From NCBI GenBank assembly GCA_037951105.1, contig JBAMJV010004005.1:79882-143881 (forward strand): a stretch of DNA of 64,000 nt. The letters run 5' to 3'. The stretch is from Echinarachnius parma (Eukaryota; Echinodermata; Echinoidea; Clypeasteroida; Echinarachniidae). How positions within the stretch are numbered: position 1 is the stretch's first letter; every line of letters starts with the position of its first letter. Below, piece by piece: positions 1,160-56,480 of the stretch. Below the pieces are notes generated by a model. The model saw only the letters and a program-made list of their open reading frames with translations. It had not been told where the DNA came from and made no database searches. A program made the position numbers and the translations under genes.

Positions 1160-1353
<194 letters not shown>

Positions 1354-1582
1354 GGTGGGGGGGGGAGGGTGAGTGTGTAGGGGTGGGGAAGGGGGGATGA
1401 GAGAAGTAGCGTGTCTTACTTCTTTTTATTTTTTGTTAAATCTCCATTGTGTTTAATTTTTGTGAATTACACTTGATTTGTACACTTGAGATGTAAACTT
1501 GTATTTTCAAAAATGTTATTCAATTGTAAATGTTATGTTAATAATTTGGAGAAATAAAAAATCATTTAAAAAAAATAAAAAA

Positions 1583-1583
1583 A

Positions 1584-1614
<31 letters not shown>

Positions 1615-2500
1615 CTGGCGTAGTGGTAGGGGGTGTCATGGGCCCCCCTCCCAAATCAATTTAAATCATGGCTTTTATCTAATTTTATTCGAAAAGAGAG
1701 TACAAACTCAGATTGCACAGTTTCAATTTTTAAAATGCCAAAGCTCCCTAACGGGGGGGGGGGGGGGGGGGGGGGAGACACCCCCCCCCCCTGCCCTTAG
1801 TTGCTATTTATGATGAAATACATACAATTCAGACAAATAAAATGTGATTTGGGACTGATATCAAGCAGCAAAATCTAACTTTATGACATAATTATAATTA
1901 TATCAAATTGATTTTGGTTTTATTTCATGTTTGTTTACATGAAAAAGATATAAATATATATATATCATTCTTATTGCACTGTTTTACAGAGAAAAATAAA
2001 ATACAATTTGACTAGAATTGTAAAGCCACTCTTTGCCCCCCTCCCCTTCTCCCCCACCCCCCATGCAGCCACGGCAATTAGAGTAAGATTGATCCCCTTT
2101 CCCAAGTCCACACTGCTCAAAATCAAATCAACTCAATTCTTTTCTACGTCGTATTCAGTGGCGTAGACAGGTTCTTACACCTGGGGGGGGGGGGGGATGA
2201 TTTGCCGTTCACCGGACCAAGACCAATTTTTCGAGACCAAGACAATTGCTTGAAAGTCCTCTCAGTGGGGGGGGGGGGGGGGGTGGGGGAGGAGGGGGGG
2301 GAGATGTGAAGATGGTCGTGACCAGGCGGGCCGAAAGCAGTTTTTGATTTTTTTTTGGGGGGGGGGGGCAAAACCTATGGGGGCTCATGATTTTGTGTGT
2401 GTATATAGGGGCTCATGCCCAACCACACTCACAGTGCTGCCAACTTTGAGCCAGATGTGAGAGTGAGACATTGCAAGGATCGAAGCGACCAAGCCCGAGG
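1583..2500. repeat. GT tract and poly-G/poly-C repeat fragments
   Basis: A short GT run (1583-1610) is followed by fragments with GGCGTAG words next to long G or C runs (about 1754-1790, 2183-2195, 2266-2310, 2357-2368). GTGGCGTAGACAG at 2158 is mirrored by GTCTACGCC at 3867. These look like overlapping pieces of a dispersed repeat family. No gene is visible. Confidence 0.5.
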
Positions 2501-3310
2501 GAGCGAAGTGACTGAGCGGGGCGGGGGGGGTGTGGGAGGGGGTATCCCGCCACGCTAGAGAGATTTTGCATTTTTGGACTTGAAATTGTGCATTCTGGTG
2601 CTTACCTAGATAGGAAATTCGGGCTTAACATTGACTGTATCTGGGAAAGCGTGTTATGATGTGATCGACCAGAAATTTTAAATATATTTTCACGATAAAA
2701 CTAATAATTGACACACTAATAAATATGCACCTCAATACATCGAGCGAAGTGACTGAGCGGGGGGAGGGTGTGTGAGGGGGTGTCCCCCCTCCCACGCTAG
2801 GGAGGTTTTGCATTTTGGACTTGAAATTGTGCATTCTGGTGATTACCTAGATAAGAAATTCGGGCTTAACATTGACTGTATCTGGGATAGCGTGTTATGA
2901 TTTGATCAACCAGAAATTTTAAATATATTTTCACGATAAAACAAATATTATTGACACACTAATAAATATGCACCTCAATACAGGGAGCGAAGTGACTGAG
3001 CCGCGGGAGGGTGTGGGAGGGGGTATCCCCCCACGCTAGAGAGATTTTGCATTTTTGGACTTGAAATTGTGCATTCTGGTGCTTTACCTAGATAGGAAAT
3101 TCGGGCTTAACATAGACTGTATCTGGGAAAGCGTGTTATGATTTGATCGACCAGAAATTTTAAATATATTTTCATGATAAAACAAATATTATTGACACAT
3201 GCACCTCAATACAGGGAGCGAAGTGACTGAGCGGGGGGAGAAATTTTAAACATATTTTCACGAAGAAAACAAATAATTGACACATATGCACCCCAACACA
3301 AATATTGTAT
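2501..3310 (+). repeat. Tandem repeat of about 240 bp, three full units plus a deleted one
   Basis: Units start with GAGCGAAGTGACTGAGC at 2501, 2742, 2985 and 3216. They share GACTTGAAATTGTGCATTCT and ACCAGAAATTTTAAATATA. The fourth unit lacks its middle. A more diverged unit continues to about 3520. Confidence 0.92.
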
Positions 3311-3898
3311 TTATATTTAGCATCATACACATCCAACATCACCATATGCCACATTATGTATGATCCAACAACTTAGCCTATATTCCCGAGGGGCGAAGCT
3401 ACCGAGGGCTGGGGCAGGGCCAAATAGGGAGGGTTTGGGAGGGGGTATCCCCCTCCCACGGAGAATATTTTGCATTTATATATATATATATACTTGAAAT
3501 GGTGCAATTTGGTGCACGTCACACAAGGAGCCAGAGCAATGCCAGCCTACACTGGAACTACGTTGCCCGGTATACAGAAACAAAATACTCACCCCTGACC
3601 ATACGCAGGTTACACAACAAACTGAGATAATTCGCGCGCGAAGCGCGCAGCAAAAATTGAAAGTTGATGTATAAATTACCTTTTTAACGTTAGAATTAAC
3701 AAGTCTTAGCTCATACAACTTTTCTTCCCCACTCGTATACAGCTACACACACAAACAAAATATCCTTCCCTAAAACCTGGGGGGGATGATTGTACATGTC
3801 ATCCCCCCCACCTTGTGAGGTGGGGGGGATGCATCCCCCTCATCCCCCCCCCCCCCCCCCCCCGTTGTCTACGCCCCTGGACTCGTATTTATTTAATT
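3311..3898. other. Degenerate satellite edge and poly-C block
   Basis: A decayed unit of the 240-bp repeat (about 3385-3520), then unremarkable sequence, then a poly-C block (about 3821-3863) ending in GTTGTCTACGCCCC. No gene is seen. Confidence 0.5.
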
Positions 3899-4133
3899 TT
3901 CGGATTAACGAACCCTATTTCATTTTAGGACTAATGAACCTTCGGAATAACGAACCCGATTTTATTTTCGGATCAACGAACCTTCGGAATAACGAACCTT
4001 CGGAATAACGAACCTTCGGAATAACGAAACTTCGGAATAACGAACCTTCGGAATCACGAACCTTCGGAATAACGAACCTTCGGAATAACTGAACCTTCGG
4101 AATAACGAACCTTCGGAATAACGGACTGTAACC
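3899..4133 (-). mobile_element. 16-bp array in reverse orientation, right inverted end
   Basis: Repeats of CCTTCGGAATAACGAA run up to a terminus CGGACTGTAACC. It matches the right end of the short element ending at 16371 (CGAGCTGTAACC). It abuts the retrotransposon RNase H remnant. Confidence 0.7.
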
Positions 4134-4690
4134 GCTCTTTCAATCATATATTGAGGGCATTCAGCTAAATGATGAAGTACAGTTTCCATTTCTAAGCACC
4201 TATCACATAAACCATTTTCTTGAAGGCCTAATCTAAATAAATCATATGTAAGGAGGTATCCAATTTCAATGGTAAATACAATAATACCTGTTTTAATACA
4301 CACGATGAGTTTGCCCATCTCTGCTGCCAAATATTATTAATTTTATTCTTTATTTCCTGTCTTACTTCAGCAAGAGTCATCTGACTATATCTGCATTGGA
4401 CCATTGTATCCCGCCTTTGCACATTTATCTGCATTTCCTTTGCCTTGAATGCCACAATGGGCAGGAACCCATTCAAAAGCAACCTTAATGTTATTATTCC
4501 TTAAATGAGTTAACAAAATCAAAATTTATTTTACCAACTTATCCTCCTTTACTTTGCGAATGGCTAAAAGTCCACTCAAAGAATCACTAAAGATGACCAC
4601 ACCGACATATAAAATTATCAAATTGTTCTACCCATGTAATGGCTAACATGATTGCAGCTAGTTCTGCTTTAAACGATGACTTTGAGTAAG
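4134..4690 (-). pseudogene. Non-LTR retrotransposon RNase H domain remnant
   Basis: Read on the minus strand, this encodes a broken RNase H domain. In order it shows FKAELAAIMLAITWVEQF with the catalytic Glu, a frameshift, then VIFSDSLSGLLAI with the catalytic Asp. Next comes VAFEWVPAHCGIQGKGNAD with the His and last Asp motif, and finally a C-terminal CxxC...H...C stretch (LCDRCLEMETVLHHLAECP) like that after RNase H in I-, Nimb- or related-clade retrotransposons. At least one frameshift and a stop break it. No reverse transcriptase was recognised upstream (above 4690), so the copy is 5'-truncated. Its 3' side stops abruptly at 4133 against a 16-bp array, which suggests a later insertion there. 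The clade is uncertain; the RNase H call is firm. Confidence 0.85.
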
Positions 4691-5857
4691 AAAGCATTTT
4701 ACTTTGTTTATAACAAAAGCTGGCACCCAAAATGCGAGCGCTCCGCTTTTATATGGCGCAAGGTGCCGAGCGCTGGTGCAAGTTAAGTATCAAAACTATC
4801 ATCTACGTAAAAACGGACCAATCCCAAATCCCAAAAGCGCAATAAAAGGCGCTGGAAAATGGTGGTCTTATCTAATTCACTAATTCAAAACATAATTATT
4901 TACTTATATAAATTAAAACTGCAACTAAATGATTACATGAATAAACATTTATAGCATACCATAAGACAATTATTATGGACAAAACGGAATATATCTCAAC
5001 ATTTTGTGACGGACGAAAGTTACCACACGTTTGGCGTATGCTAGCCTGCAGTGTTGACTATAAGATGCGCATGCATATTTTTGCCTTGTGGCCCAGTCGG
5101 GCAAGATAAACAAGATGTTCCAATTCTAGTGGCCCGAAACCTGAATCTGGCCCATAACAAAGAATAGCATGAACAATTATGTTATGTTACATGAGTTATG
5201 TTTTCTTTGGTTTTGGGCCAGTGGAATTAAGCATCCGTGACATTTGGTGGCCAGGGGGCAGGGGCCCGATTACGGACCAGCGACATTTACCATGGTAATT
5301 AGCATCATTGGCTCTAACTCATCGATGTCAATATGCTAGAATTACATACAAATCAACAGAACGTAGCAGAGCACACATACCGCCCTTACTCACTTAACCG
5401 TAAAGCATAATCTAGAGATCAGTGGAACTAGGGCTGGTCCTTGGTCATGATCGTGCTCTCGGCCACTGGGTCTGTGGGCCTATGCTAATCTTGAGCTCTG
5501 GTATCATTTAGATCTGTGTCATACCTTTATAGCCTGTGGTAAGTTTTCTTTGTCCCTTTGCCATTCTGCACATTACACTCCATACCAATTTAAATCACAA
5601 TGTTACACACAATACAACGGTAAACAAATAACAGGCCCACAGGCCCGAGACCACTCAAAGTAATGGAGTGGGCACACGAGACTTGCGACGACCTGCAACA
5701 GCTTGCGATTGGTCACGTGCACATATATGAAAGGCGGATTTTGCCAAAGTCTGTAATACATCACCGCCCTGTACACATATTCCGCAATTCAAGGATGACC
5801 GTTAATATCTCTCTGCTCTTATATTGATATGGTCATGTTGCAACAATCATGGAATAC
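4691..5857. other. No recognisable feature
   Basis: There is no long open frame, tandem repeat or known element here. Words such as GTGGCC and GGCCCGA recur near 5090-5280 and 5640, which may mark an old repeat. Confidence 0.4.
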
Positions 5858-6164
5858 TATAGGTTTTCCCATTCATTTTAACACTATTGTCATTCAATTT
5901 CATTAATTCGTCATTCAATTTCGTCCCGAGAAACCAACAGAGCGTAAATCCCAACTTCAATTTCGTCAATGGTCATTCTATTTCGTCATTGGTCAACCAA
6001 TTTCAAATATTTCGCATTCAAAATCGTCAATTGTCATTGGAATTCGTCTCGGCCACTGAGCGGGTGGTGAATGTTAAGTTCAATTTCGTCATTGTGCAAA
6101 CAATTTCGTGAATTTGTCATTCAAATTCGTCAGGTGGTATAGCCTTTTGTTGGGATAGGAAAAC

Positions 6165-6441
<277 letters not shown>

Positions 6442-6589
6442 TATTTCCAAATCAAGATGAAACAAAATTAAAAAAAGTCCAGTTTGATTTACTTCAAATC
6501 TCTTACAAAATATATAAAACAAAACATAACAACATTACATATATTTCTATACAAAAAATATATAATTGAATGAAGATCTGTTTTAAACG

Positions 6590-6604
6590 TATGTGTGTGT
6601 GTGG

Positions 6605-6638
<34 letters not shown>

Positions 6639-6657
6639 ATGTGTGTGTGTGTGTGTG

Positions 6658-6707
<50 letters not shown>
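6590..6707 (+). repeat. (GT)n microsatellite
   Basis: GT repeats interrupted by GGAT and GC, inside family C copy 1. Confidence 0.97.
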
Positions 6708-6709
<2 letters not shown>

Positions 6710-7065
6710 CCCCTATATAATTAATGTTACAATTTAACAATTACATCAAGACAATTATAACAGAAAATTACCTCCTAAATACATAGGACGAATTTGAATG
6801 GATTTTTGACGAAATTGGTTGCCAATTGACGAAAATAAATTGCTTTCGCTTTAATGTGTTCAGCAACTGTGACCGACGAAATTGATTTGCAATTGACGAA
6901 AATGTGTGCCTAATGACTAAATTGTGTGGTGATTGTGTTAAATTGATTGACGAAAGACGAAATTGAAGTTGGGATTTCCGCTCTGGTGGTTCCTCGGGAC
7001 GAATTTGAATGACGAATTAATGAAATTGAATGACAAAAGTGTTAAAATGAATGGGAAAACCTATA

Positions 7066-7468
7066 TTACTACTTCTACTACTCCTAATAATACTAATAAT
7101 TATAATAGTAATATTGATAATTATAACAATAATATAATTTTATAATAATTTATAAGGCGCATAATAGCCTCTAAGCGTCGGACCCGCATTGTACACATCC
7201 TCTACTTCCCGAAGAGCATGCTAGCGGTGGGCTGCCATATTGGTGCACCAAGCTTATATGAAATTAGCCTGAGTATGGAGCCATATCAAAGACAAATGTG
7301 GCAAAATGTAAACATAGTACGTGGTGCAAGCTTTTGGCTTTTAGCTCATACAAAGACCCCCCAATGGGCCAAATATAAAATACCGCGGTAAATAAGGTAG
7401 ACAAACAACAACAACAACAATAGCAACTGTGGGACATGAAGGAGAATCTTGTGCCTAAGGCGCTGAGA
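7066..7468. other. No recognisable feature
   Basis: ATT/ACT-rich sequence, then unique-looking sequence. No gene or element is recognised. Confidence 0.4.
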
Positions 7469-7711
7469 GCTTAATAAGCAATGTTCCTCCCTTTAATCCT
7501 CCAAATGAAAAAAGGCACTGGTCGAAAAATTGGTCTCCGCCAGGACTCGAACCTGTCTCCGGCTTGGAACGCCGGCTTGAAGGCGTCGGCTTGAAGGCGT
7601 CCGGCTTGAAGGTGTCGGCGTTCCAAGCCGGAGACCAGTTCGAGTCCTGGCGGAGACCAATTTTTCGACCATTTCATTTGGAGGATTAAATGGAGGAACA
7701 TTGCTTATTAA
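7469..7711. mobile_element. Palindromic element with tRNA-like B-box in its arms
   Basis: AGCTTAATAAGCAATGTTCC on the left is repeated inverted at the right end (about 7692-7711), and the arms match over about 100 bp. Each arm carries a B-box-like stretch (AGTTCGAGTCCTGG on the right, its diverged complement on the left) next to GGTCTCCG words. The centre holds short GGCTTGAAGGCGTC repeats. It looks like two tRNA-related SINE ends joined head to head. Confidence 0.7.
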
Positions 7712-7827
7712 GCTACACCTACTCTTATTCTTCCTTCTCAATCATTTATAATTATTCTTTGCAATTATTTAAATATTGGAAGAAACCAAAGCTGTATGTA
7801 TTAGTTCACTTTTCGCTTATTTCTTGC

Positions 7828-7866
<39 letters not shown>

Positions 7867-8230
7867 ATAACGCAGTCCTTGGCCACTAGATGGCGCCAAA
7901 CACGATACATCCATTTGCAACATCCATGCCCCCCTCCTGTACCATAATGGGGTTTCTGGATAATCTTCGGGAAATTTCTTATGTAATTTTGGAGGTTTTA
8001 AGTTGTGAACTAGTCTATTTCACATACTTTCAGTCTGCTGAACACTATATTAGTCCGCTGACAATGCCCAAGCGAAATTTCGGGTATTTAATTATCATGT
8101 TTGCATTACTAGATTTATGAAATATGAAATTAATGTGTTTTATGTCAAGCATGTACAATCTAGATCATTATCATGAAATAATTAAGCGAGTCAATAGGCA
8201 ATGTATTGGCCGCCATTACAGAATGTCCAG
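7712..8230. other. AT microsatellite and unremarkable sequence
   Basis: (AT)n lies at 7831-7860. The rest has no gene or element I recognise. Confidence 0.5.
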
Positions 8231-8615
8231 TTAAAGGGATTTAGTATTCCATTGTCCAAATCCTCAAAACTTACTTGGAACTCTTTTGTTTCTCTCATAC
8301 CTTGTCATATTCATACTAACACAATAAAGCACGGGACAGATTTCGGTTTTTCAAGTTTCCATTTCGTTCAAAAGATATTTACGATTGAAGTGTTCAGATG
8401 TTAAACTGTCTACGGGATCATTTTAAGCCGTGTACAAAGCATGTGCAATGAGTTAAGGAATAACACTTTGCCTTTGTGCTCATTTCTCGGCTAAAAAAAC
8501 ATCAAATCAACGTGAAATTTTCACCTATTACTTTGTGGACATATCCGATCACACCAATTTTATTAATCAATCATCACTTTTTTTGCACTTGTCAACAAAG
8601 TCACTATTCCTTTAA
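8231..8615 (+). mobile_element. Family A TTAA-flanked MITE, copy 1
   Basis: It begins TTAAAGGGATTTAGTA and ends ACTATTCCTTTAA. The interior words GTTCAAAAGATATTTACGAT and CGTGTACAAAG are shared by all family copies. There is no coding capacity. TTAA at both ends suggests a Kolobok- or piggyBac-type origin. Confidence 0.85.
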
Positions 8616-8744
8616 GGATATTTTCAATAAGTTCCTGTCTTGTAAAACTAATTTATCAATATATCAAATTAAAAGCGTCAATTTCACAGCCAAATGATTG
8701 AATGAGAACAGTAATAACATTATTAGTCATGGAGGTATGATTAT

Positions 8745-9140
8745 TTAAAGGGACTTAGTAACATTGTCCAAATCCTTAAAATCCAATTGGAATTCTAGCG
8801 GTTCCCTCATACCTTGTTGTATTCGTATTAACAATAAAAGCATGGGACAGGTTTCGGTTTTTTCATATTTCCTTTCCGTTCAAAAGATATTTACGATTGA
8901 AGTGTTCAGATGTTAAATTATCCACTGGACCGCGGAAACCGTGTACAAACTGAGTGCAGTGAGTTAGTGAATATCACTTTGCATTTTTGCTCATTACTCG
9001 GCCATATAACGTCCATTTAACTAGTCTATAATCTAGACCCTCGAAAGCGCCGCCAACGAGAGAGATCTGCATAACATCAGTGATCTATCAACCACTCATA
9101 ACTTTTTGCACATGTCAACAAAGTTACTAGATCACTTTCA
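8745..9140 (+). mobile_element. Family A MITE, copy 2
   Basis: Starts TTAAAGGGACTTAGTAACAT and ends GTTACTAGATCACTTTCA, so the right TTAA is mutated. The middle (about 9018-9090) is replaced by another short repeat. Confidence 0.85.
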
Positions 9141-9250
9141 TTATTAGCTTTAGTTTGTGTTTGCTTCATTCATATATGTAAAGAAAACTTGATGAGCAGA
9201 AACCGGTCAATCACGTCATAATTAACGTGTTCGTTAGGCCTCTGAGCTAC

Positions 9251-10045
9251 TATAGGTTTTCTAGACCAATTTCGTAAGCTTCTCATTCGTTTTGATAAGC
9301 GTGTCTTTCAATTTCGCGAAATTGAGCTGAAGGCTTGCAATTGTGGTTCAAAATTGCACTTCGGTCAAGTGATTTACCACTTTTAGCATTCAATTTAAAA
9401 AACACGCTTTTTGCATTCAGTTTCGCCAAAGGATTTCACGGAAGGCGGTATTACGTAATCACGAATTTTCTCGCTTTAAATTGAATGACAATTTTACGAA
9501 ATAGAAACGCGTAGTAACTTTGTTGACATGTGCAAGAAGTGAAGAGTGGTTGATACAATGTATACTGTTGTTACCTGATATGTCCAATTGGTGTCATGTG
9601 AACATTTCAAGTTAAATGGACATTATATGAGTAATGAGCAAAAAAGCAAAGTGATATTCATTAACTTATTACACTCACTTTGTACACGGTTTTGACGATC
9701 CAGTGGATTATTCAACATCTGAACACTTCAAACGCACGTATCTTTTTAACGCAAGGGAAATTTGAAAGACCGAAACCTGTCCCATGATTTTATTGTTAAT
9801 ACGAATACAACAAGGTATGAGGGAATCGCTAGAATTCCAATTGGATTTTAAAGATTTGGACAATGTTACTAAGTCCCTTTAAATCGAATACAAACAAAAA
9901 GTTTTCGAATGATTGTTATACGAATTCGAATGCTTAAAAATGGAATTTGAACTACAATAATACAGCTGCGGTGACAAAATCGGCGAAATTGAATGCACGT
10001 CAAGATGAATTCGTCTGGCCAACGAAATTGACCGGAAATCCTATA
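9251..10045. mobile_element. Family C foldback element, copy 2, with nested A copy
   Basis: The left end TATAGGTTTTCTAGACCAAT and the right end ending GGAAATCCTATA are inverted, with CAATTTCGT words inside both. A family-A element (9511-9882) is nested in it, so this copy predates that insertion. Confidence 0.8.
9511..9882 (-). mobile_element. Family A MITE, copy 3, nested
   Basis: Reverse orientation: GTAGTAACTTTGTTGACATG at the start, AAGTCCCTTTAA at the end. The first few terminal bases are missing or mutated. Confidence 0.85.
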
Positions 10046-10597
10046 TTAAAGAGGTAGTTCAGTTTGGTAGAGAGGGCGCTGCACAACACAATTTTGTCGT
10101 GAGATAATGAAAAACTGAGTGTTGACTTTGAAAGAACATGCAATTTTAATGGCAGAATAAACTTTATTTGGTCAAAATCGGTTCAGAAATGGCTGTATAA
10201 TATCAATAAATATATCCGATCGTAATAAATCTGGGCCCCATATTTAATTAATGATTTTAAAACAAATTTTTAAAATGCTTACACTTTTTCAAAACATTTC
10301 AAAAGCGGTTTTTCAATAGTTGTTGATGATCTCTCTATTTAATCATTATTTTAACAAAACATCACATACATAATTTTGTATGAAAAATGATTGAAACCAA
10401 TGCCTTTTTAGATAGCGCCCTCTTGTGTTTTAATGGCTCTTTTTGAATGATAACAGGCTTTTTACTTAGTCGTTTGTAATTTTGTATACCTTTCAAGCAT
10501 GATGGTGTTATAACTATTAGTTTGTATATTACCATGATTACTGTGCATGTTTTGGTTACTAAAGTTCAACCTTACCAAAACTGTACTACCCCTTTAA
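10046..10597 (+). mobile_element. Family B TTAA-flanked MITE, copy 1
   Basis: Starts TTAAAGAGGTAGTTCAGTTT and ends ACTACCCCTTTAA. It shares GAGAGGGCGCT, AATGGCAGAATAAACTTTAT and AACTATTAGTTTGT with copies at 27940 and 62020. It directly abuts the right end of family C copy 2. Confidence 0.88.
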
Positions 10598-11749
10598 ACA
10601 TCAACACCATTATTGTGTTGTACAGCCCACCATTAGTTTGAAATGAACCATCGACATAATAATCATCATTTAACGGGCTACTCATTTATTATAAATAAAA
10701 CATAAACAATTTGTTTTATGGGCTACCGGCACCCACTATAATGACATATGGAACTTCAGCTTTAATTGTTTTACAGGCTAACACGCACCAATTGAAATGC
10801 TATCCAAAGTAATTATCTGAACACGTTCCAATGACGAACAAATTTCGTTGCATTTCTATATGAACAAAAAGATGTGAGATTTCTAGCTGTGCGTGTTGGC
10901 GGGAAACCTAAAATTCGGCGTCAGTTTCATGGTTTGGCGCGCATTTATTTAATGACGATTGGCGCTTCCTGCTTGTGATCATGCAAAAGTGTGGTATAAA
11001 ATGTAAAGTTCTATATGGTGATTCCACATTTAAAAAGGCGCCAGACACGAACACACAAACTCATGCACACATTCGTTTGAACACATGCACACACTTATAC
11101 ACATACGCACGCACACAAACACATGAATTCACATACACAAACACAAGCACATACATACAAACGTACTCTTAAAAACACACACACACACACACACATACAC
11201 ACACGCACACGCACACGCACACGCACACGCACACGCACACGCGCACATACACATACACACACATACACACACAACAAACTCATTATTACATTGTGAAAAT
11301 GTACATTTCGGTCAATGTCGTAGGGCAGAATTACCCGGATGACGAAAGGGGTCAAATAGGTGGTGGCTTGAACTCCAATTTCAATTTATTTTGAAAATCG
11401 AATAAATCAGTTCGAATAAATAAATGTCTTAGTCACACAAACTCCCGATTGAATGCTGTCGTCAGTAAAATAATAGAAACAACAACGACCTTATCCAATA
11501 TTACAAATTAGTTAAGAAAGCAATTAGTAAACAAAATAAAATCGGACAAAATAGGAATTCGAGCTTCTAAAAATGCAAGAAACGTCAACAAGTTCATAAA
11601 CAATTATTACATTTCAATCATATATTAAGAGAACATTGACTAATAATATGATTTATACCGCAGTAGATGATATAAGATTAAGTTGTAAGGGGATCAATTA
11701 GTTATATGTATACTTACTACTCTAACCGTGCTCATATACTCTAACCGTG
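10598..11749. other. Mostly featureless, with an AC tract
   Basis: (AC)n with GC variants lies at about 11174-11275. No gene or other element is recognised. Confidence 0.5.
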
Positions 11750-11960
11750 CTCATATACCCTGCTGTATTACCGATAGGAACATGGAACTGGTTTTGGTCT
11801 TCTGAATTTCTCCTTCCTTTAAACGATATTATGATTGAACTGTTCTGCTTTAAAAGTCTCCCTGTGAGATTTGCAACCGTGTACAACGTTAATGCGGTGA
11901 GTTAGCAAATATCTCTTTACGTTTTTGCTGATTACTGGGCCGTATGACATTCATTTATTC
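11750..11960 (+). mobile_element. Family A MITE, diverged fragment (copy 4)
   Basis: It retains ACCGTGTACAA, GTGAGTTAGCAAATAT and GATTACTGGGCCGTAT, homologous to the interior of family A. The ends are not recognisable. Confidence 0.6.
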
Positions 11961-12477
11961 ATCAATTTCCAGTTAATTTCATTCGTTAAAAATATTTTTA
12001 AAATACAATTGAAACACAAATAACGACAAAACACACACTAAAAGAATGTACATAATTCGTAGTATAAAAAGGGTACATTGTTGAGTGGGTAGCGGCCAGA
12101 AAGGAATTAAATCCTGACCCTGGAATTATATTTTTTTTTAAATACCACAAATTCAAAGGATTAATTTTGTATAGCTCCAACAACACAGAAAACACACTAA
12201 AACAACCTAAGAGAACATGTATGTAAAAATTAAAATATTATACGGGAGAGGGCATTGTCAGATATTGTTTTAAAGAGCATCAAGCGTGGGGATGCTACAT
12301 AGCGGGTCGCCATTTTGAACTGGGTTAGTTTGCGCGCACCGCATGACACTGAGCTAACGTGCATTACGCACCGTGCGCAACGCGTATGCAAGATGGCGCC
12401 GCGCATCTCATTTGACGAATCTGAACTACCTTTAAGTTACATGGAATGTTCACACATCACTCAGTGGACATAGCAGT

Positions 12478-12634
12478 GCCCCGTTGCAGAGGAGGGTTCC
12501 AATCGATTGTAAAGTTGCAAGTATTTGCAAGTCAGATCATGTGACTGAATGCGCAAATCTGATTTGTTCAAATGTGCATATTTTCTGACTTGCAATTAAT
12601 TGCAACTTTACAATCTTTTTTGCAACGGGGCCCG
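12478..12634. mobile_element. Family G palindromic MITE, copy 1
   Basis: GCCCCGTTGCAGAGGAGGG at one end and TTTTTGCAACGGGGCCCGG at the other. The arms share TTGTAAAGTTGCAA and CAAGTCAGA and their complements. It is related to the pair at 26281-26605. Confidence 0.75.
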
Positions 12635-12870
12635 GATCACAAAAATAAAAGTTGTATCGAACTTTTTCATTGTTTCTACATGTCAAACAAGTTACTTGAT
12701 CCGATGAAATATTATAAAGTTGGGTGATATTAGAACTATTTTGCAAGCATGTACAAAAGTGGTATGAATACTTGCCCTGTATCCAAACATAATTTGTACC
12801 AAATTGTTGCTGTTATGCATTCTAAGCCCCATGTTTTAGAAAAAATTATTACCATCATCATCATCATAAT

Positions 12871-13152
12871 GTGGGAGTATCGTGGTATATTGGTTCGGGC
12901 CTTCGTCTTTAAATACGAAAGTCGTGGGTTCGATTCCCAGCCGCGGCACGTGTGTCCTTCCGCAAGACTCTTTTGCTGCTCTCAACCCGGGTGTAGTAAA
13001 TGGGTACTTGGCAGGAATGTATTCCTTGAAATGCTTGAGCGCTTGAATAAGACTGCTCGGCTGAAGCCAAGGTAATAATGCTCCGAGCGCTTTGAGACTT
13101 AACTGTAAAAACGCGCTATATAAAAATGGACAATTATTATTATTATTATCAT
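12871..13152 (+). mobile_element. tRNA-derived SINE, copy 1
   Basis: A-box-like TGGTATATTGG (12883-12893) and B-box GGTTCGATTCC (12927-12937), an unrelated body containing GCGCTATATAAAAATGG, and an ATT-repeat tail. Such layouts define tRNA-derived SINEs, which are common in sea urchins. It is not a functional tRNA gene. Confidence 0.85.
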
Positions 13153-13244
13153 CGATTATTTATAGGTGGCATTGTAAAGCGCCACTGTGGCCTTCACATC
13201 CCCCTTCCTCCTGCCTAGTGCTTGCATAGTTCATCCACTATAAG

Positions 13245-13633
13245 TTAAAGGGATGTAGTAACTCTGTTGATATGTGCAAAAACTGATGAATGGTGGTTGA
13301 GGAAATGTGTATTATTTTTGGTGATCTGATATGTCCACTGAGCGATGTGTGAAAATTCCAAAGTAAATGACTGTCAAAATGACTTAGCTAAGAGCGAAAA
13401 TGCAAAGTGATGTTTGCTTTAACTATTTGCACTTACTTTGTACATATTTGATACAATCTCCCATGGAGAATTGTAAATCCAAACATTACAATCAAAATTA
13501 TCTGTATAACAAAAGAGAAATTCGAAAAACTGAAACCAGTTCTATAAGTGTACAACGGGGTATGTGAAAATCGCTATGGTTTTCCAAGTTATGTTGGTGG
13601 ATTTCGACAATGTTTTTTGAATAGATCCCTTGA
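13245..13633 (-). mobile_element. Family A MITE, copy 5
   Basis: Starts TTAAAGGGATGTAGTAACTC and ends TAGATCCCTTGA (right TTAA mutated). The interior includes TGATCTGATATGTCCACTG and its family words. Confidence 0.85.
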
Positions 13634-14486
13634 AATCGTCAGTCCGAAATACTGGTGGATGAATTCCACGTTTCCTTAAATTGCTCCCTTTACTATTTTG
13701 TTTCTTAACTCCTTAATTTCTCCTATAACAGAGCTCGAAAAAAATACAATATATTTAGGATTGCGTCACGGTTGAATTTCGGTTACGTTTTCTCTTAATC
13801 TATTTCTAAAGCTAATTTCGCTTTCGGTTTAAAGAACTGGTTTGAATTCAAATAGTACCTAGGTATATCATTTTATTTTTACAGCTATTTTTGCTTTTAA
13901 TTTGCGGAATTACTTAAGCTTTCGATGTGCACATATACCTTTACTTTTAATTTGCGAGAACGTCGTGATAAGCTTTTCAAGGGCGTTTTTCTCTTAGTTT
14001 TGCCTTTAAACCGATATAGTATTAGATATGAAAATATTTACATTACGACCGTTCAAAGAACTGCTAATTTGATTGCAGCGCTCTGCCATTATTCGCTTCA
14101 CAAAGAAAGAATCACAGTATACGTTCGAAGCGTATGACGCTGTCAATTCAGAACGTTTATTTGTATAAACAATATGCATCTCGTGAGTAAGGTATTGTTG
14201 AATTAGGCCAAAATAAGCTAAGCATACTTTTTTCTATTAAATCCTTCGTAATTTAATACATTATCCATGTTTTCGTTGACAAAAATATAATAGCTGTGTA
14301 GGCTATACATTATATAGAAGTTCAATTATTTTAATCTATATTCTCTAACTTCAGTTCTTTGCCACTCTTTCTATTTTTATTTTAAGTAATTATGCAAGTA
14401 ATTTCATATACCCGTCATCTAATATATTCTGCATTCCCCATGCATACAGCGCAGCGGGTAACATAAACAATGTTCTTCTACGATTG
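13634..14486. other. No recognisable feature
   Basis: AT-rich sequence with no credible open frame, tandem repeat or known element. Confidence 0.4.
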
Positions 14487-14834
14487 GATGTGGTGTGGCA
14501 AGATTGGTAGAGCGCGCGCTTTCCGATCATGAGATCCCGGGTTCGAACCCTGCCCACCGCGTTTGTTCTTCAGCAAGACAATTTATCCACAATTGCTGCT
14601 CTCTACCCAGGTGTATAAATGGGGACCCGGTAGGAGGTGAAAGCCTTATGTGAACGATCTTCTTGAGCCCATGAGCGCTTGGAAGGAATGCTCCCCAGGG
14701 AGTGGAGATGGTGCACACAATGTGTGCTGGTTTGCATTGTATCCTATGACCGGGGGTAATATTATCATTGTAAAACGCTTAGAGATGATTATCAATCATA
14801 TTAGGCGCTATATAAATCGAGATTATTATTATTA
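14487..14834 (+). mobile_element. tRNA-derived SINE, copy 2 (full length)
   Basis: A-box TGGCAAGATTGG (14496-14507), B-box GGTTCGAACCC (14540-14550). The body has GGAAGGAATGCTCCC and AGGCGCTATATAAATCGAG, and the tail is (ATT)n. Partial copies of the body lie at 33465 and 35180. Confidence 0.88.
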
Positions 14835-15847
14835 CGATGAAATTAATGAAATATCATCACTATTACATTGATTTCAATAATTAGTAGCATCCTTGAAGGT
14901 TCAGTTCCATCTCCCCGTATAGTTCCAATCCCAATTGATCATTTTAATATAAATTCACTTCTTGAATTCTAAAGCAAACTAATATCAATTCATTTTACAC
15001 CCCAGGAGACTTAACACGGCATAATTTACAACGCTTTTGCGGTGATGGTTTCGCCCTACTGCGCATGAGCGCGCGCACCGCTGTCTTGCGGAAAGTAACC
15101 GTCCGCGCATGGCTGCGCACAAGTCAATTCAAACTTCATAATTCGTGGTCCATCTCTCGCTTATTTTATTAAACCGCCTGTCACCGCCAAGATATAATGT
15201 GTAATCGTCACCAGCGGCAGTATTTACCGTGCTCAACAACCCATGGAAAACCCACAAATCGTATCAAATAACCGTCCCAAAGCAGAAGAAGAAGAATAAG
15301 ATGCGGGATGGATATGGAAATTAAAGAGAAACAAAATTGTAACGAAAACCAATAAGGAAATCAGGCCGCGTGTCGAGTAAACGGCTGCTTGCTCGCGATG
15401 GTTTTTAATCACAGACCTTGGTGTTTTTATTCTTGTTGTTTGTGTAATATATAAATAGGAGGCTTTAAATCATAAATTGCTTCTCATGAAAATAATATTG
15501 ACTTGAAATTTCATTTGGATGTCTTTAGGGAGTAAAGTAAGGATGGGTCCCTGGGGGAATATTGGTTTATTGTTTGTATATAAAGTTCACTTCCGCTAGG
15601 GACTGACTGCTATACGAGAAAAACAGGTGTGGTCAGTGTAACATGAAATGCTTTCACAATTATCAAGCAATTGTATTATTATTAACTTTCGATGAATTAA
15701 GTGTCGAAATTAGATATCACTAAACATGTGTTGTTTGTACAATTAAAATATTAGACATTGTATAATGTATACTGTAAATTAACTGTAGACGTATTCAGGA
15801 GACAAACATACGTGATACCGCAAGATTAGTCACATAATTGTCAAAAT
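14835..15847. other. No recognisable feature
   Basis: No gene or element is recognised. A GC-richer patch with GCGCATGAGCGCGCGC lies near 15060-15110. Confidence 0.4.
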
Positions 15848-34824: not shown

Positions 34825-35134
34825 ATGGAAGCGCAACTGATGCGAAGTCACTTCTCCCAGGCCGGGAGTCTCGGCGGACTCTCACCCTTCCCGCCATACT
34901 CCTTCTCGTCGGCTGCTGCAGCTCATGCGCTGGGATTCCACATCTCGCCGCCGGGCGCGTCCCCTGGAACTCCGGGCGAGCTCGCCATCGCTAACTCGTT
35001 ATCTGCTGCAGCAGCGGCTGCCGCAGCAAGAGTACATGGCTCCGCGAAGAAGGATGGTAACCGAGGAATGGCGGGGGAATGCTACCTCGGGAAAGGCGCC
35101 ATGATGAAATCTGAACACTGTGACAGCTTGGCCG
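34825..35134 (+). CDS. Uncx: Uncx (Unc-4 family homeobox) exon 1, N-terminal region
   Basis: First coding exon of a paired-class homeobox transcription factor of the Unc-4/Uncx family, encoding residues 1-103 and the first base of codon 104. The ATG at 34825 is chosen because an in-frame TGA lies at 34807-34809 and this is the first in-frame Met after it; its context AAAGATGG is favourable. The exon encodes a low-complexity N-terminus rich in Ser, Gly, Pro and Ala, with an eight-Ala run at residues 61-68; such tracts are common in Uncx proteins. It ends at a consensus donor, G|GTAAGT, in phase 1, which matches the phase of exon 2 and rebuilds a Gly codon (GGT). No DNA-binding residues lie here. 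Intron 1 follows (5722 bp). Family assignment rests on exons 2 and 3; joining this exon rests on phase, donor quality and position. Confidence 0.9.
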
Positions 35135-35179
35135 GTAAGTAGACTGCTCAATAACCATTTTTGTACATAATTGGCCTTC

Positions 35180-38780: not shown

Positions 38781-40856
38781 CTTAACCCAAATATAATAAT
38801 TGTTGTGTTTATGTTAGAATTGCATGATTTGTACGGCTATCTTTCTTAAATTGCGCTCTTTGTTGAAATTAAATTGTCCATGGTGGAATGATTATTACAA
38901 TATTATCCAGATTCAGCCAGGATAATTGTTAGATATTTTGTTGGTTATGGATGCAATAAAATGTTGCATGCATAATCAACTTTCTCATAACTGAGAAGTA
39001 TTATACCACGCTCATTGATATTGGTAAAGACAGAGACATCAACCCTTTTGCCTTTGAATAATTCTTAAAGACGGATTTATGGGTTATACTTCTCATTAAA
39101 AAAAAGCCTCGGGAACTTAATGTGAAGATGAAATAATGATCATGATAGTAATTGTCGTAATGACATTAAACGATTGCCTTGCATGAATATAGAAAGAGAG
39201 AAATATATATCGCCATCAAGCATTGTCAAGTTAAAAGGGTCATTTATTTTCTTTAAAAAGGTTTACTGCCCTCTGCTAGAAATATAATTTAGAAAACATT
39301 TTGATGACGTTCGTCAAATGACAAAGAAGATCAGTATAGGAAATAATTGATAACAGTGTTAGTTCTCTTTCCATCTATAATGGCGGATTTATGTAAATAC
39401 AAAATATAATAGAGGAAAAGACAATCAGATTCGAACAGACTTCTGTATAATTATGTAGTCGTTTTGCCGCTATAATTGATAAGAAAAGAAGTGTTTCTCG
39501 ATAGAAAATGTCCAACTCGGAGGGAAGTGCTTCCACATGATTAACTAAATTGCGATGGTGATTGCTTCATTTTGAAGCAGACAACGACGACAAAAAATGT
39601 ATACGAGGCAGAAAATCGTTCCTACTCAAGTTGAAAGGTGCATGGTTCAGATTCGTATATCAGATGCGCGCTGCCATATTACGAACGCCTTGCGCACGGA
39701 GCGAAATACACACATGGCTCAGTGGTAACAAATGCTCACAAACTATTCTAATATCAAATGGCAAACCGCGTTGTAGAATCCCCATGCATGCTTGCCGATC
39801 TTAAAAGCTCGCCTGCGGGAAACTAACTGGCTGGCAGTATTCATCCCACTTTTGCTCTCTCCAGCATCCACCCACCAAACTCGGAAAATCATTTTACGAG
39901 TTCCGATCGGAAGAGAAAGGAAATTATGCGATAACACTCGTGTAATAGGTAGAGAGTGACCCCCTCCCATCATCCCCATCACATGTTGAACGCCAATATG
40001 CTGGATCGTAAAATGGAAGATCTATACGATAGATAGATAGATAATATGCAATGTATCGCTTGGGGGCCACATGCGTGTGCATGGCATGATGTAGCTAGGG
40101 GGCGAGCTGGCTCTCTCATCTCTATTGCTACCAAGGAATGATGCGAACAAGAAGCGATATATAATTAGCGACGGGGAAGATAACTAAAACCCAGAGGGGA
40201 TCGGTGGAAACTGGAAAGGGAACCCCCAAAGATACTTTTCCTGCGCCCCTCCTTTTTATCATTCAACTTTCGGTTAATTGCTTATCTCACCCCGATACAA
40301 CTACCACCATCCCTCCAAGCTTCTGTAAACATAGTCTTGTCGATATCCATTTAAAATTAAATGCACGAATATTGCTCCATCAGAAGTGCAAGTTTGATAA
40401 CATTTAATAAGGCACCCAAAAGAGGCAGGTGCTTATACCAAGAAAACTCCCGATATTAACTGGTTCCTTACCAGGTACATGTTTGTATATCAACCTGATC
40501 TATTCGGTAAAGAAATTGATTTATAACCGAGGCAATAATAATAATTATACAGACTTGCGGAAATTATGAAACTATAACACTGGAAACAGTCTTTATCACA
40601 TGATGTACTTAGTTCTCTTCCTATATGATATATCGTCACACGAGATGACACCAAGATTCCAATTATAGCAAGGTGAGGAGGGATAGGACTTACTCCAACA
40701 ACTGTCAGTTAGTGAAATTAGAAACAAACTTCCAATAATGGAAGTCTTATGTCATCTAATTTCTTACCTGAACCGAAACGTGCTTGGTAATTGAGAATAA
40801 TATATAAAATTACTCATATTATATTCATATTACATTATTTCTTTTGAAACATGCAG

Positions 40857-41026
40857 GTGATGACGACAAAGATTCGAACGACAGCAAGAGGAGGAGGAGC
40901 AGGACGAACTTTAACGGCTGGCAGTTGGAGGAACTGGAACGAGCCTTCAATGAAAGTCACTACCCAGACGTCTTCACGCGAGAAGCTCTTGCCATGAGGT
41001 TGGACCTCGTAGAGTCGCGAGTTCAG
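40857..41026 (+). CDS. Uncx: Uncx exon 2, homeodomain residues 1-46
   Basis: Second coding exon, residues 104-160. After an acidic stretch (DDDKDSNDS) it encodes the basic N-terminal arm RRRSRTNF and homeodomain helices 1 and 2 up to [10 protein letters not shown], with the homeodomain starting at about residue 115. The stretch [20 protein letters not shown] is closely like vertebrate UNCX. The acceptor ATGCAG| lies at 40851-40856. The donor CAG|GTGAGC at 41027 is in phase 0, splitting the homeodomain between positions 46 and 47, a classic intron site of paired-class homeobox genes. The 3' end of this exon is repeated, degraded, three times in the next 460 bp of intron 2. Because exon 3 supplies the recognition helix, this exon alone cannot encode a DNA-binding homeodomain. 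Confidence 0.97.
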
Positions 41027-41090
41027 GTGAGCATCATGTGTTTAAACTACTTCGATAATATTACATAAATATATTTAAACTTTGATTCAT

Positions 41091-41184
41091 ACAATGAAAA
41101 AAGTCATTCCCGAGCATCTTTACGCGAAAAGCTCTAGCCATGAGGTTGGACCTCGTGAGTTCCCGGGTTCAGGTGAGAACCAGA
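41091..41184 (+). pseudogene. Degenerate copy 1 of the Uncx exon 2 3' end, with intact donor
   Basis: Copies the last part of exon 2, 146 bp downstream of it (end to end). Frame 41104-41172 is open for 23 codons and reads [20 protein letters not shown] at its end, against [20 protein letters not shown] in the true exon. It is followed by a consensus donor, CAG|GTGAGA. It is preceded by AAAAAAG rather than a polypyrimidine tract, and a one-base deletion lies further 5', so helix 1 is not encoded. Four of the six codon differences from ACG (41122) to CAG (41172) are synonymous. It is most likely an exon relic. A 69-bp in-frame cassette is formally possible, but its acceptor looks poor. Confidence 0.8.
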
Positions 41185-41288
41185 ATTACGAGCCATTCTA
41201 ATGAATTTTAAGTGTATCTCATAAAAATGCAAATAAATATACACATACACCTGTACATGACATATGGAAGTTGAGGTACAGTTTCTCC

Positions 41289-41390
41289 AGTCTTTCCAGG
41301 TGTCTTTACGTGAGAAGCTCTTGCCATGAGGTTGTACCTTGTGGAGTCTCGAGTTCAGTTGAACACCATGTCTTTAACTACTATTATTTG
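41289..41390 (+). pseudogene. Degenerate copy 2 of the Uncx exon 2 3' end plus intron start
   Basis: Second degraded repeat. In the homeodomain frame it reads VFT, a TGA stop in place of Arg, then EALAMRLYLVESRVQ ending at 41358. The splice donor is lost (TT in place of GT). About 25 bp after the exon edge still match the start of intron 2 (GAACACCATGTCTTTAACTA against GAGCATCATGTGTTTAAACT), so the duplicated unit crossed the exon-intron border. Confidence 0.8.
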
Positions 41391-41394
41391 AATG

Positions 41395-41490
41395 GAAAAA
41401 ATGGTTTAAGGAGTCTTTCTCGACCATCTTCACGTGGGAAGACATTGCCGTGAGGTTGGACCTTGTGTCCCTTCGATTCCAAACGTTTGG
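41395..41490 (+). pseudogene. Degenerate copy 3 of the Uncx exon 2 3' end
   Basis: Most diverged repeat. The frame ending at 41482 reads IFTWEDIAVRLDLVSLRFQ, still recognisable as the helix 2 region. No GT donor follows CAA. It shares GTG for Val, and a replacement of the following Glu by Ser, with copy 1, and CTT for Leu with copy 2. This suggests the copies share ancestry not identical to the present exon 2. Confidence 0.65.
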
Positions 41491-41654
41491 AAATATTTCG
41501 ATTTGGTTCTGACGATTCCCCATCACAAATTTCAATGTGAATGTTAATCTTGCTATCAAGTCTTTTCTAAAGTCAACTATCCTTCGCCTTTTCTTTCCTG
41601 CTTACTTTGGAAAATTATCCACGTCAGCTCCATTCTCTTGATGCCTCTTGTTCC

Positions 41655-52103: not shown

Positions 52104-53048
52104 GTTTGGTTCCAGAACCGTCGCGCGAAGTGGCGTAAGAAGGAGAACACACGCAAGGGTCCTGGGCGTCCTGCCCACAATGCTCACCTGACGTCCTGCA
52201 GCGGGGAACCCATACCTGCTGATGAGCTGGAGCGACGAGAACGGACGAAGATCGAGAGGAAGATAAAGAAGCAACAGGAAAAGAAAGAGAAGCCTTCGCC
52301 ACGACCGGCTTCCAGGAAGGGAGACGGCAGCAAGGGCGCCCTCAATGACGGTAGCCTAGATATGGATAGAGAGTCCTCAGCCTCTGCGGGAGCTCTGTTC
52401 CACGACGGACCGCCATCGTTCCTGTCCGACGGGAAGCTCTCACTCTCTCACCGAGATATGACGGATGGATCTAGCGTTGCACCGAGTGAAGTCGACTCGG
52501 AGTGCGTCGATTCAATAAGTTCCGATACCCCTGACGAGCATAAGCTACCGGATTCGCCGCAATATCACCTACCGCCGAGAACACTGTTTAACCATCTTGG
52601 ACATGTTGGAGGCGTTGGTCCGATGCCGCGATTCCACGATTCAGAGAAACTCCAAGACTGCGACGCGGCGTCAGCTTTCCACAGCTCTTTCAGCATCGAT
52701 AGGCTCTTGTCACGCCAGCCAGACCAGCAGGGCGAGCTGAAGTCGCCAGGGGCGGTGGTCGCTGCTGCGGCTGCTGCTGCCATGTGGCCAGACTTCTGCG
52801 CTGCGGGTTACACCCTGGCCGCTCCTAACCCTCTGGCATGGGGAGCGCTGACGGCGTTCGGGTTCCCCAGGATGTGGGCGCTGACGGCCGACCGTCTGAC
52901 GGGGTGCCTCAGAGCGAACGGACAGCATCCGGGTCTACTTGATGCGTGGAGGGAGAGGAAGACAATGAGTGTGGAAGCACTGAGGAAAAAGGCGCAGGAG
53001 CATAGAGAGGCCCTGCACCAGTCGGATCTCAAGGAAATGAAAGAATGA
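52104..53048 (+). CDS. Uncx: Uncx exon 3, recognition helix and C-terminal region
   Basis: Last coding exon, residues 161-474, ending at TGA 53046-53048. It opens in phase 0 after a pyrimidine-rich acceptor with VWFQNRRAKWRKKEN, the homeodomain recognition helix (Trp48, Phe49, Gln50, Asn51 and Arg53 are residues 162-167). Next come the Unc-4 family signatures GPGRPAHN (179-186) and CSGEP (192-196) and a Lys/Arg/Glu-rich helix at about 201-223. The motif FSIDRLL (356-362) fits the eh1 consensus for Groucho/TLE co-repressors, in keeping with Unc-4 acting as a repressor in nematodes. A seven-Ala run lies at 380-386. Near the C-terminus SVEALRKKAQEHREAL (449-464) resembles the OAR motif of paired-class factors. 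The protein should be a nuclear DNA-binding repressor of neural or mesodermal patterning genes; that role comes from family knowledge, not from this sequence. Confidence 0.97.
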   Translation, partial: VWFQNRRAKWRKKENTRKGPGRPAHNAHLTSCSGEPIPADELERRERTKIERKIKKQQEKKEKPSPRPASRKGDGSKGALNDGSLDMDRESSASAGALFHDGPPSFLSDGKLSLSHRDMTDGSSVAPSEVDSECVDSISSDTPDEHKLPDSPQYHLPPRTLFNHLGHVGGVGPMPRFHDSEKLQDCDAASAFHSSFSIDRLLSRQPDQQGELKSPGAVVAAAAAAAMWPDFCAAGYTLAAPNPLAWGALTAFGFPRMWALTADRLTGCLRANGQHPGLLDAWRERKTMSVEALRKKAQEHREALHQSDLKEMKE

Positions 53049-55680: not shown

Positions 55681-56480
55681 TGTTGATGATGTTTGTGTCG
55701 ATGTTCTTGGTGTTTTCTCTGATGTTGCTGTTCATGTTGTTGTAGGTGATGTTAATATTGTTGTTGTTTTTGTTCATGTTGTTGTTGGTGATGTTGGTGT
55801 TGTGGCTGATATCGCTGGTCATGTTGTTGATGTTGATGGTGTTGATATTATTGTTCATGTTGCTGTTGGTGATGTTGATGTTGTTTTCCTTGGTGCTGTT
55901 GGTGTTATAGCTGATGTTGATGATGTTGATTTTGATGGTGTTGGTGTTGTGGCTGATGATGCTGTTAATGTTGCTGATGTTGATGATGTTGATGTTGGTG
56001 TTGTGGCTGATGAGGCTGTTAATGTTGCTGATGTTGATTTTGATGGTGTTGGTGTTGTGGCTGATGATGCTGTTAATGTTGCTGATGTTGATGATGTTGA
56101 TGTTGGTGTTGTGGCTGATGATGCTGTTAATGTTGTTGATGTTGATGATGTTGGTGTTGTGGCTGATGATGCTGTTAATGTTGCTGATGTTGATGATGTT
56201 GATGTTGGTGTTGTGGCTGATGATGCTGTTAATGTTGCTGATGTTGATTTTGATGGTGTTGGTGTTGTGGCTGATGATGCTGTTAATGTTGTTAATGTTG
56301 CTGATGTTGATGTTGGTGTTGTGGCTGATGATGCTGTTAATGTTGCTGATGTTGATGATGTTGATGTTGATGATGTTGGTTTTTTTGCCACTGATGTTTT
56401 TTGTTGATGTCTGTGATGACGTGGCGAATGTTGCTGTTCATGTTGATAATGTTGGTGTTGTTAATGTTGATATGGACGTT
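55681..56480 (+). repeat. GTT/GAT trinucleotide array with 54-bp higher-order unit
   Basis: GCTGTTAATG recurs at 55961, 56015, 56069, 56123, 56171, 56225, 56279 and 56333: spacing 54 bp, once 48. All periods are multiples of six, so several frames on both strands stay open by default. Confidence 0.95.

Follow-up and report, generated by a model that had tools for sequence, protein, structure and literature searches.

Partial copies of a homeobox exon on both sides of exon 2 in an Unc-4 gene of Echinarachnius parma, and similar copies beside other split homeobox exons

A stretch of intron that reads as homeodomain raises the question of whether it is a lost exon, a hidden exon or something else. 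Such a case is found in the Unc-4 (Uncx) gene of Echinarachnius parma, which lies on the + strand of the 64-kb stretch of DNA analyzed here (hereafter, the window). The original prediction, made from the letters of the window, described three decayed tandem copies of the end of exon 2 directly after that exon, at spacings of 146, 186 and 124 bp. Several questions follow. Are the copies real? Are they complete? Were they ever used as protein? Is the array peculiar to this gene?

The gene has three exons, which were recognized by open frames and homology (Table 1). Its earlier identification as Unc-4 (Uncx) was confirmed by homology: the homeodomain is of the paired type, the best matches are named unc-4, and the exon 2 region (contig C4003:120773-120910) matches PF00046. 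A conceptual protein, in which the junction of exons 1 and 2 was guessed, matched the Lytechinus pictus unc-4 homolog with 69% identity over 99% of the query, and the second-best match was a Diadema antillarum protein with 62% (among the best 120 of 2669 matches), which places the host among the sea urchins. As read from the genomic frames alone, the homeobox is interrupted by an intron after Q46, with exon 2 ending in ...ESRVQ (41026) and exon 3 starting with VWFQNRRAKWR (52104). This intron position is presumably common to the Unc-4 genes of relatives. Exon 2 still reads as the usual first half of a homeobox. No local copies of exons 1 and 3 were found within 1.5 kb (E 1e-4).

Table 1. Exons of the Unc-4 gene and pieces of the array around exon 2, in positions of the window
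Feature	Position	Strand	Basis and remarks
Unc-4 exon 1, coding part	34825..35142	+	Open frame, homology to unc-4 proteins; begins MEAQLMRSHFSQ...; 35142 is the open-frame end, 3′ splice position not fixed
U, decayed copy of the exon 2 5′ part, in intron 1	40644..40757	+	blastn, shuffles; also in the other haplotype
E, live exon 2	40856..41026	+	Codes for the homeodomain as far as Q46; donor at 41027 is GTGAGC
Spacer, exon 2 to C1	41037..41099	+	Haplotypes align poorly here
C1, exon 3′ part and about 10 bp of intron	41100..41182	+	Donor-like CAG/GTGAG intact at 41173
C2, exon 3′ part and intron start	41296..41382	+	TGA stop; donor now TTGAA
C3, most diverged copy	41412..41467	+	Donor lost
Unc-4 exon 3	52104..53048	+	Open frame; VWFQNRRAKWR... 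to stop

The three downstream copies are real. In the comparison with shuffled sequence that had been named beforehand, the score of the local alignment with the exon was reached by none of 2000 dinucleotide shuffles for each of C1, C2 and C3, and two control stretches adjoining the array were at the level of shuffles (observed score reached by 1810 and 1789 of 2000). The copies are 73–85% like the exon and each covers only part of it. The spacings given originally are correct when taken from start to start, and so are the three translations quoted with them. Part of the intron start had also been said to be duplicated; this is clear in C2, whose match runs through the donor into the intron (88 bp at 85%), and extends to about 10 bp in C1. 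Direct orientation, a position adjoining the source and the included intron flank are features of local tandem duplication, whereas a fragment of a processed pseudogene would contain no intron sequence. A duplication of E and C1 as a doublet to give C2 and C3 was hinted at by resemblance of the flanks but is not supported by the distances, as C3 differs from C1 at 20 positions and from C2 at 16.

The array had been described as lying downstream of exon 2 only. It has a further member, U, in intron 1, so that a copy of the exon head is found upstream and copies of the exon tail downstream. By blastn, 40644-40723 matches exon positions 40859-40939 with 71.6% identity (E 2.4e-5), and the alignment score of U was reached by none of 2000 shuffles, nor were the scores of its parts before and after an AGG-rich stretch when each was shuffled 2000 times. 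A full-length upstream copy was rejected, the 3′ continuation of U being insignificant (122 of 2000 shuffles).

U and C1–C3 are also carried by the other haplotype, on contig C2936, which is broadly collinear with window positions 21275-58466, the longest block having 96.5% identity over 12.6 kb; a reading of C2936 as a paralogue instead of an allele was rejected on this ground. Between the haplotypes, the live exon has four differences as read from the alignment, four synonymous and none non-synonymous. C3 has seven in 57 bp (synonymous 2.5, non-synonymous 4.5), and in the other haplotype 12 bp are inserted in C2. The stop in C2 and the donor-like CAG/GTGAG of C1 are present in both. Together with the change in the spacer, this is the pattern expected of decaying sequence. 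That the array as a whole might be unusually divergent between alleles was considered and rejected: only the 100-bp window holding the spacer (41001-41100) is in the top 2% of divergence among 347, the six others from 40901 to 41600 ranging from the top 9% to the top 61%. An inversion of the spacer between exon 2 and C1 in one haplotype was not supported either (124 and 235 of 2000 shuffles).

The array is not peculiar to Unc-4. Among 32 further split homeobox exons (Unc-4 not counted), 10 have partial copies within 700 bp, a split exon being one with a partial homeodomain match in the genomic sequence. The assembly (1.2 Gb in 14,790 contigs, both haplotypes included) gave at least 128 matches to PF00046, and the 73 tested for local copies are not all independent, as alleles and near-duplicates occur among them (L062 and L063, for example, are identical in their homeodomain residues). 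In its final version, the test took the homeodomain match with 60 bp upstream and 6 bp downstream and searched 700 bp to either side by blastn. Simple sequence was removed, and a match needed an E of 1e-4 or less, a length of 30 bp or more and an offset of 50 or more. A first set of 21 split exons gave six positives (L035, L039, L064, L068, L069, L070). A second set of 11, which was tested after this form had been fixed, gave four (L075, L077, L079, L081); ten of the latter 11 exons were also fetched after that point, and L009 was fetched earlier. From their letters, we take L064 to be Phox2-like, L068 Dmbx-like, L069 Otx-like, L077 Hhex-like and L081 Dlx-like. L071, on a sister contig of L064 and with the same unfiltered matches, was left out of the counts. 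Exons treated as unsplit were positive in two cases of 39 (L021, L036).

Other forms of the test preceded this one. With the homeodomain match alone and E at most 1e-3, 1 of 30, 0 of 20 and 4 of 10 exons were positive, the last four being L064, L065, L068 and L069, of which two had matches no longer than 22 and 15 bp. With the widened interval (60 bp upstream, 6 bp downstream) and no filter, there were 11 positives among 62 exons, including 9 among the 23 split ones, against an unfiltered control in which 107 of 600 random window intervals were positive. The simple-sequence filter was added after the unfiltered scan and removed both L053 and, at Unc-4, the upstream copy U, the latter because of its AGG-rich stretch, and the 30-bp rule excluded L065.

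As at Unc-4, copies lying upstream of these exons tend to derive from the first part of the interval and those lying downstream from its middle or end, and pieces from the interval middle are found both upstream (L069, 71-145) and downstream (L064, 59-137). A Dlx-like exon has two copies after it. A breakpoint at homeodomain residue 25, seen by eye in both Unc-4 and L039, was considered as a shared feature and is absent at the Phox2-like locus. Two of these loci can be described separately. On contig C179, a homeobox exon (L039:1555-2440) is followed by four clear copies of its end part (92–95%) and a faint fifth, the clear copies at spacings of 183, 152, 152 and 145 bp and all four retaining the exon-end sequence AAGGTAG. 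At L069:362-748, two decayed copies of the Otx-like exon start with the adjoining intron end lie upstream, at an offset of about 172–177 bp.

How often would such copies be found by chance? Random 204-bp intervals, drawn from the window with the array excluded, had a local copy in 50 of 500 and 46 of 500 cases. The corresponding counts were 24 of 400 at other loci, 13 of 120 in introns beside split exons and 34 of 200 for GC-rich window intervals (GC at least 0.45). Against these, 10 of 32 gives one-sided Fisher P values of 0.0014, 0.0008, 0.00005, 0.007 and 0.053, in that order. The excess is thus least clear against the GC-rich control, which is the nearest one because none of the 32 exons falls below 0.45 in GC (homeodomain-match GC 0.50–0.64, median 0.58), and which was set by that floor and not GC-matched to the exons. 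There may be a real bias of duplication towards exon boundaries among the homeobox exons tested. Exon–copy pairs diverge mostly on one side, and this slower divergence may be an added source of the excess; given the slow change of the live exon, duplicates anchored in an exon may stay recognizable for longer than those derived from intron alone. A stronger reading would make the splice junctions of coding exons in this species true hotspots of partial duplication, affecting about one-third of split homeobox exons, with some copies that have intact splice sites kept as decoys for splicing control; we regard it as unlikely.

Very probably, the Unc-4 array was left behind by several local tandem duplications over the splice junctions of exon 2, and its copies have decayed neutrally since. 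The copies lie 124–215 bp from their neighbours, a duplication over the acceptor presumably leaving a copy of the exon head upstream (U) and duplications over the donor leaving copies of the exon tail downstream (C1–C3). Because the original junctions kept working, the extra pieces would have ended up within introns, where they are presumably spliced out and decay neutrally, while selection holds the live exon. The order of head upstream and tail downstream is as expected from tandem duplication across a splice junction, and such duplication would also account for the orientation of the pieces, the intron sequence that they contain, their decay and the recurrence at other exons. Presence in both haplotypes, order of the pieces, decay and recurrence at other exons are direct observations; the cause would be replication slippage, template switching or unequal exchange, which are indistinguishable here.

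Might the copies instead once have been half-exons, alternative or additional ones, under selection for the protein they encoded? The original prediction offered either this or a change of the live exon under selection after the duplications, and pointed to differences of copies 1 and 2 that were mostly synonymous. Counted by codon, copy by copy against the exon over 19 codons, this stands for C2 (synonymous 4, non-synonymous 2) but not for C1, which is about even (in the window 5.2 against 4.8, in the other haplotype 4.2 against 3.8). C3 is mostly non-synonymous (7 and 11). If the copy alone changes and the exon never does, the scarcity of non-synonymous changes has P 0.03–0.05 for C1 and C2, which favours past coding. 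When the exon is also allowed synonymous change, of a kind that it shows between the haplotypes, P becomes 0.12 for C2 and 0.15 and 0.13 for C1 in the two haplotypes, so that neutral evolution of a copy next to an exon under constraint is neither rejected nor, with numbers this small, proved. The GTG said to be common to all copies where the exon has GTA is a plain substitution in C2 only. The alignments of C1 and C3 have gaps there, and in the other haplotype C3 has GCG at this site; the shared GTG appears doubtful, and in C1 and C3 indels may be its source. Moreover, the copies are partial and, by the usual helix limits, lack homeodomain helix 1, the stop in C2 is found in both haplotypes, the donors of C2 and C3 are lost, and no acceptor with a pyrimidine tract is seen by eye (unscored) before the copies. 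Among mutually exclusive tandem exons of the Dscam type, each copy is a complete exon that has an open frame and a splice site at either end. The Unc-4 pieces are like them in being exon copies in tandem within an intron, but they are fragments that have lost signals and, in the case of C2, carry a stop, and they are not alternative cassettes. Neither past selection on the copies nor special selection on the live exon is supported, and a coding past is very improbable.

A role in splicing control, in which extra donors such as that of C1 compete with the true donor to give a truncated or decaying transcript, is improbable, albeit with some points on its side: the donor-like CAG/GTGAG of C1 in both haplotypes, the exon end kept in the clear C179 copies, and a stop after homeodomain residue 46 that use of the C1 donor would bring in both haplotypes. 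Since this donor, if used, leads to a stop, C1 may be a minor decoy. However, neither C2 nor C3 has a donor any longer, the spacer preceding C1 is very different between the haplotypes, and donors in young copies would persist simply for want of time. False tandem copies built from misassembled reads are scarcely credible. A fragmented assembly with both haplotypes carries that general risk, but the copies are far from near-identical to the exon, and a one-off error is unlikely because the same array is also present on the contig of the other haplotype, where it is marked by separate substitutions and indels. Decayed local tandem duplication is our preferred explanation.

Tandem duplication across intron–exon boundaries is already known (PMC4974935, PMC2891723, PMC2374710), and short insertions have been traced mainly to tandem duplication (PMC2374710, which cites Messer and Arndt 2007). 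Near intron pairs in Drosophila (PMC2891723) likewise involve local duplication at or over an intron–exon boundary with splice signals included; in Unc-4, unlike them, no new intron or altered coding structure is seen, the pieces lying inside existing introns. The short insertions described (PMC2374710) also come from local duplication in direct orientation, a frequent kind of mutation, whereas the copies here are about 40–130 bp at offsets of about 120–630 bp, are partly old and overlap coding exon ends. Among titles and abstract starts on Uncx or homeobox intron duplication, sea urchin introns and partial exon duplication, no title concerned such arrays.

Fragments in the homeodomain frame within introns need not signal lost or hidden exons, as they are common beside the homeobox exons of this genome, and its annotators should expect false half-exons. 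Exon-anchored duplicates could also serve to date and count local duplications. The window as a whole contains 14 local duplication arrays with offsets of 60–600 bp, the Unc-4 array included and some lying in simple repeats. One of its many tandem arrays is a 54-bp minisatellite of about 11 units (55776-56376), and a 241-bp tandem repeat of about three copies with 89% matches is found at 2501-3199. Rfam and tRNA scans of the window at default thresholds gave no match. On a larger scale, contig C1024 has six homeodomain matches, five of them equal in score, every 2.7–2.8 kb from about 1293 to 15193, which may be a tandem gene array or an effect of assembly.
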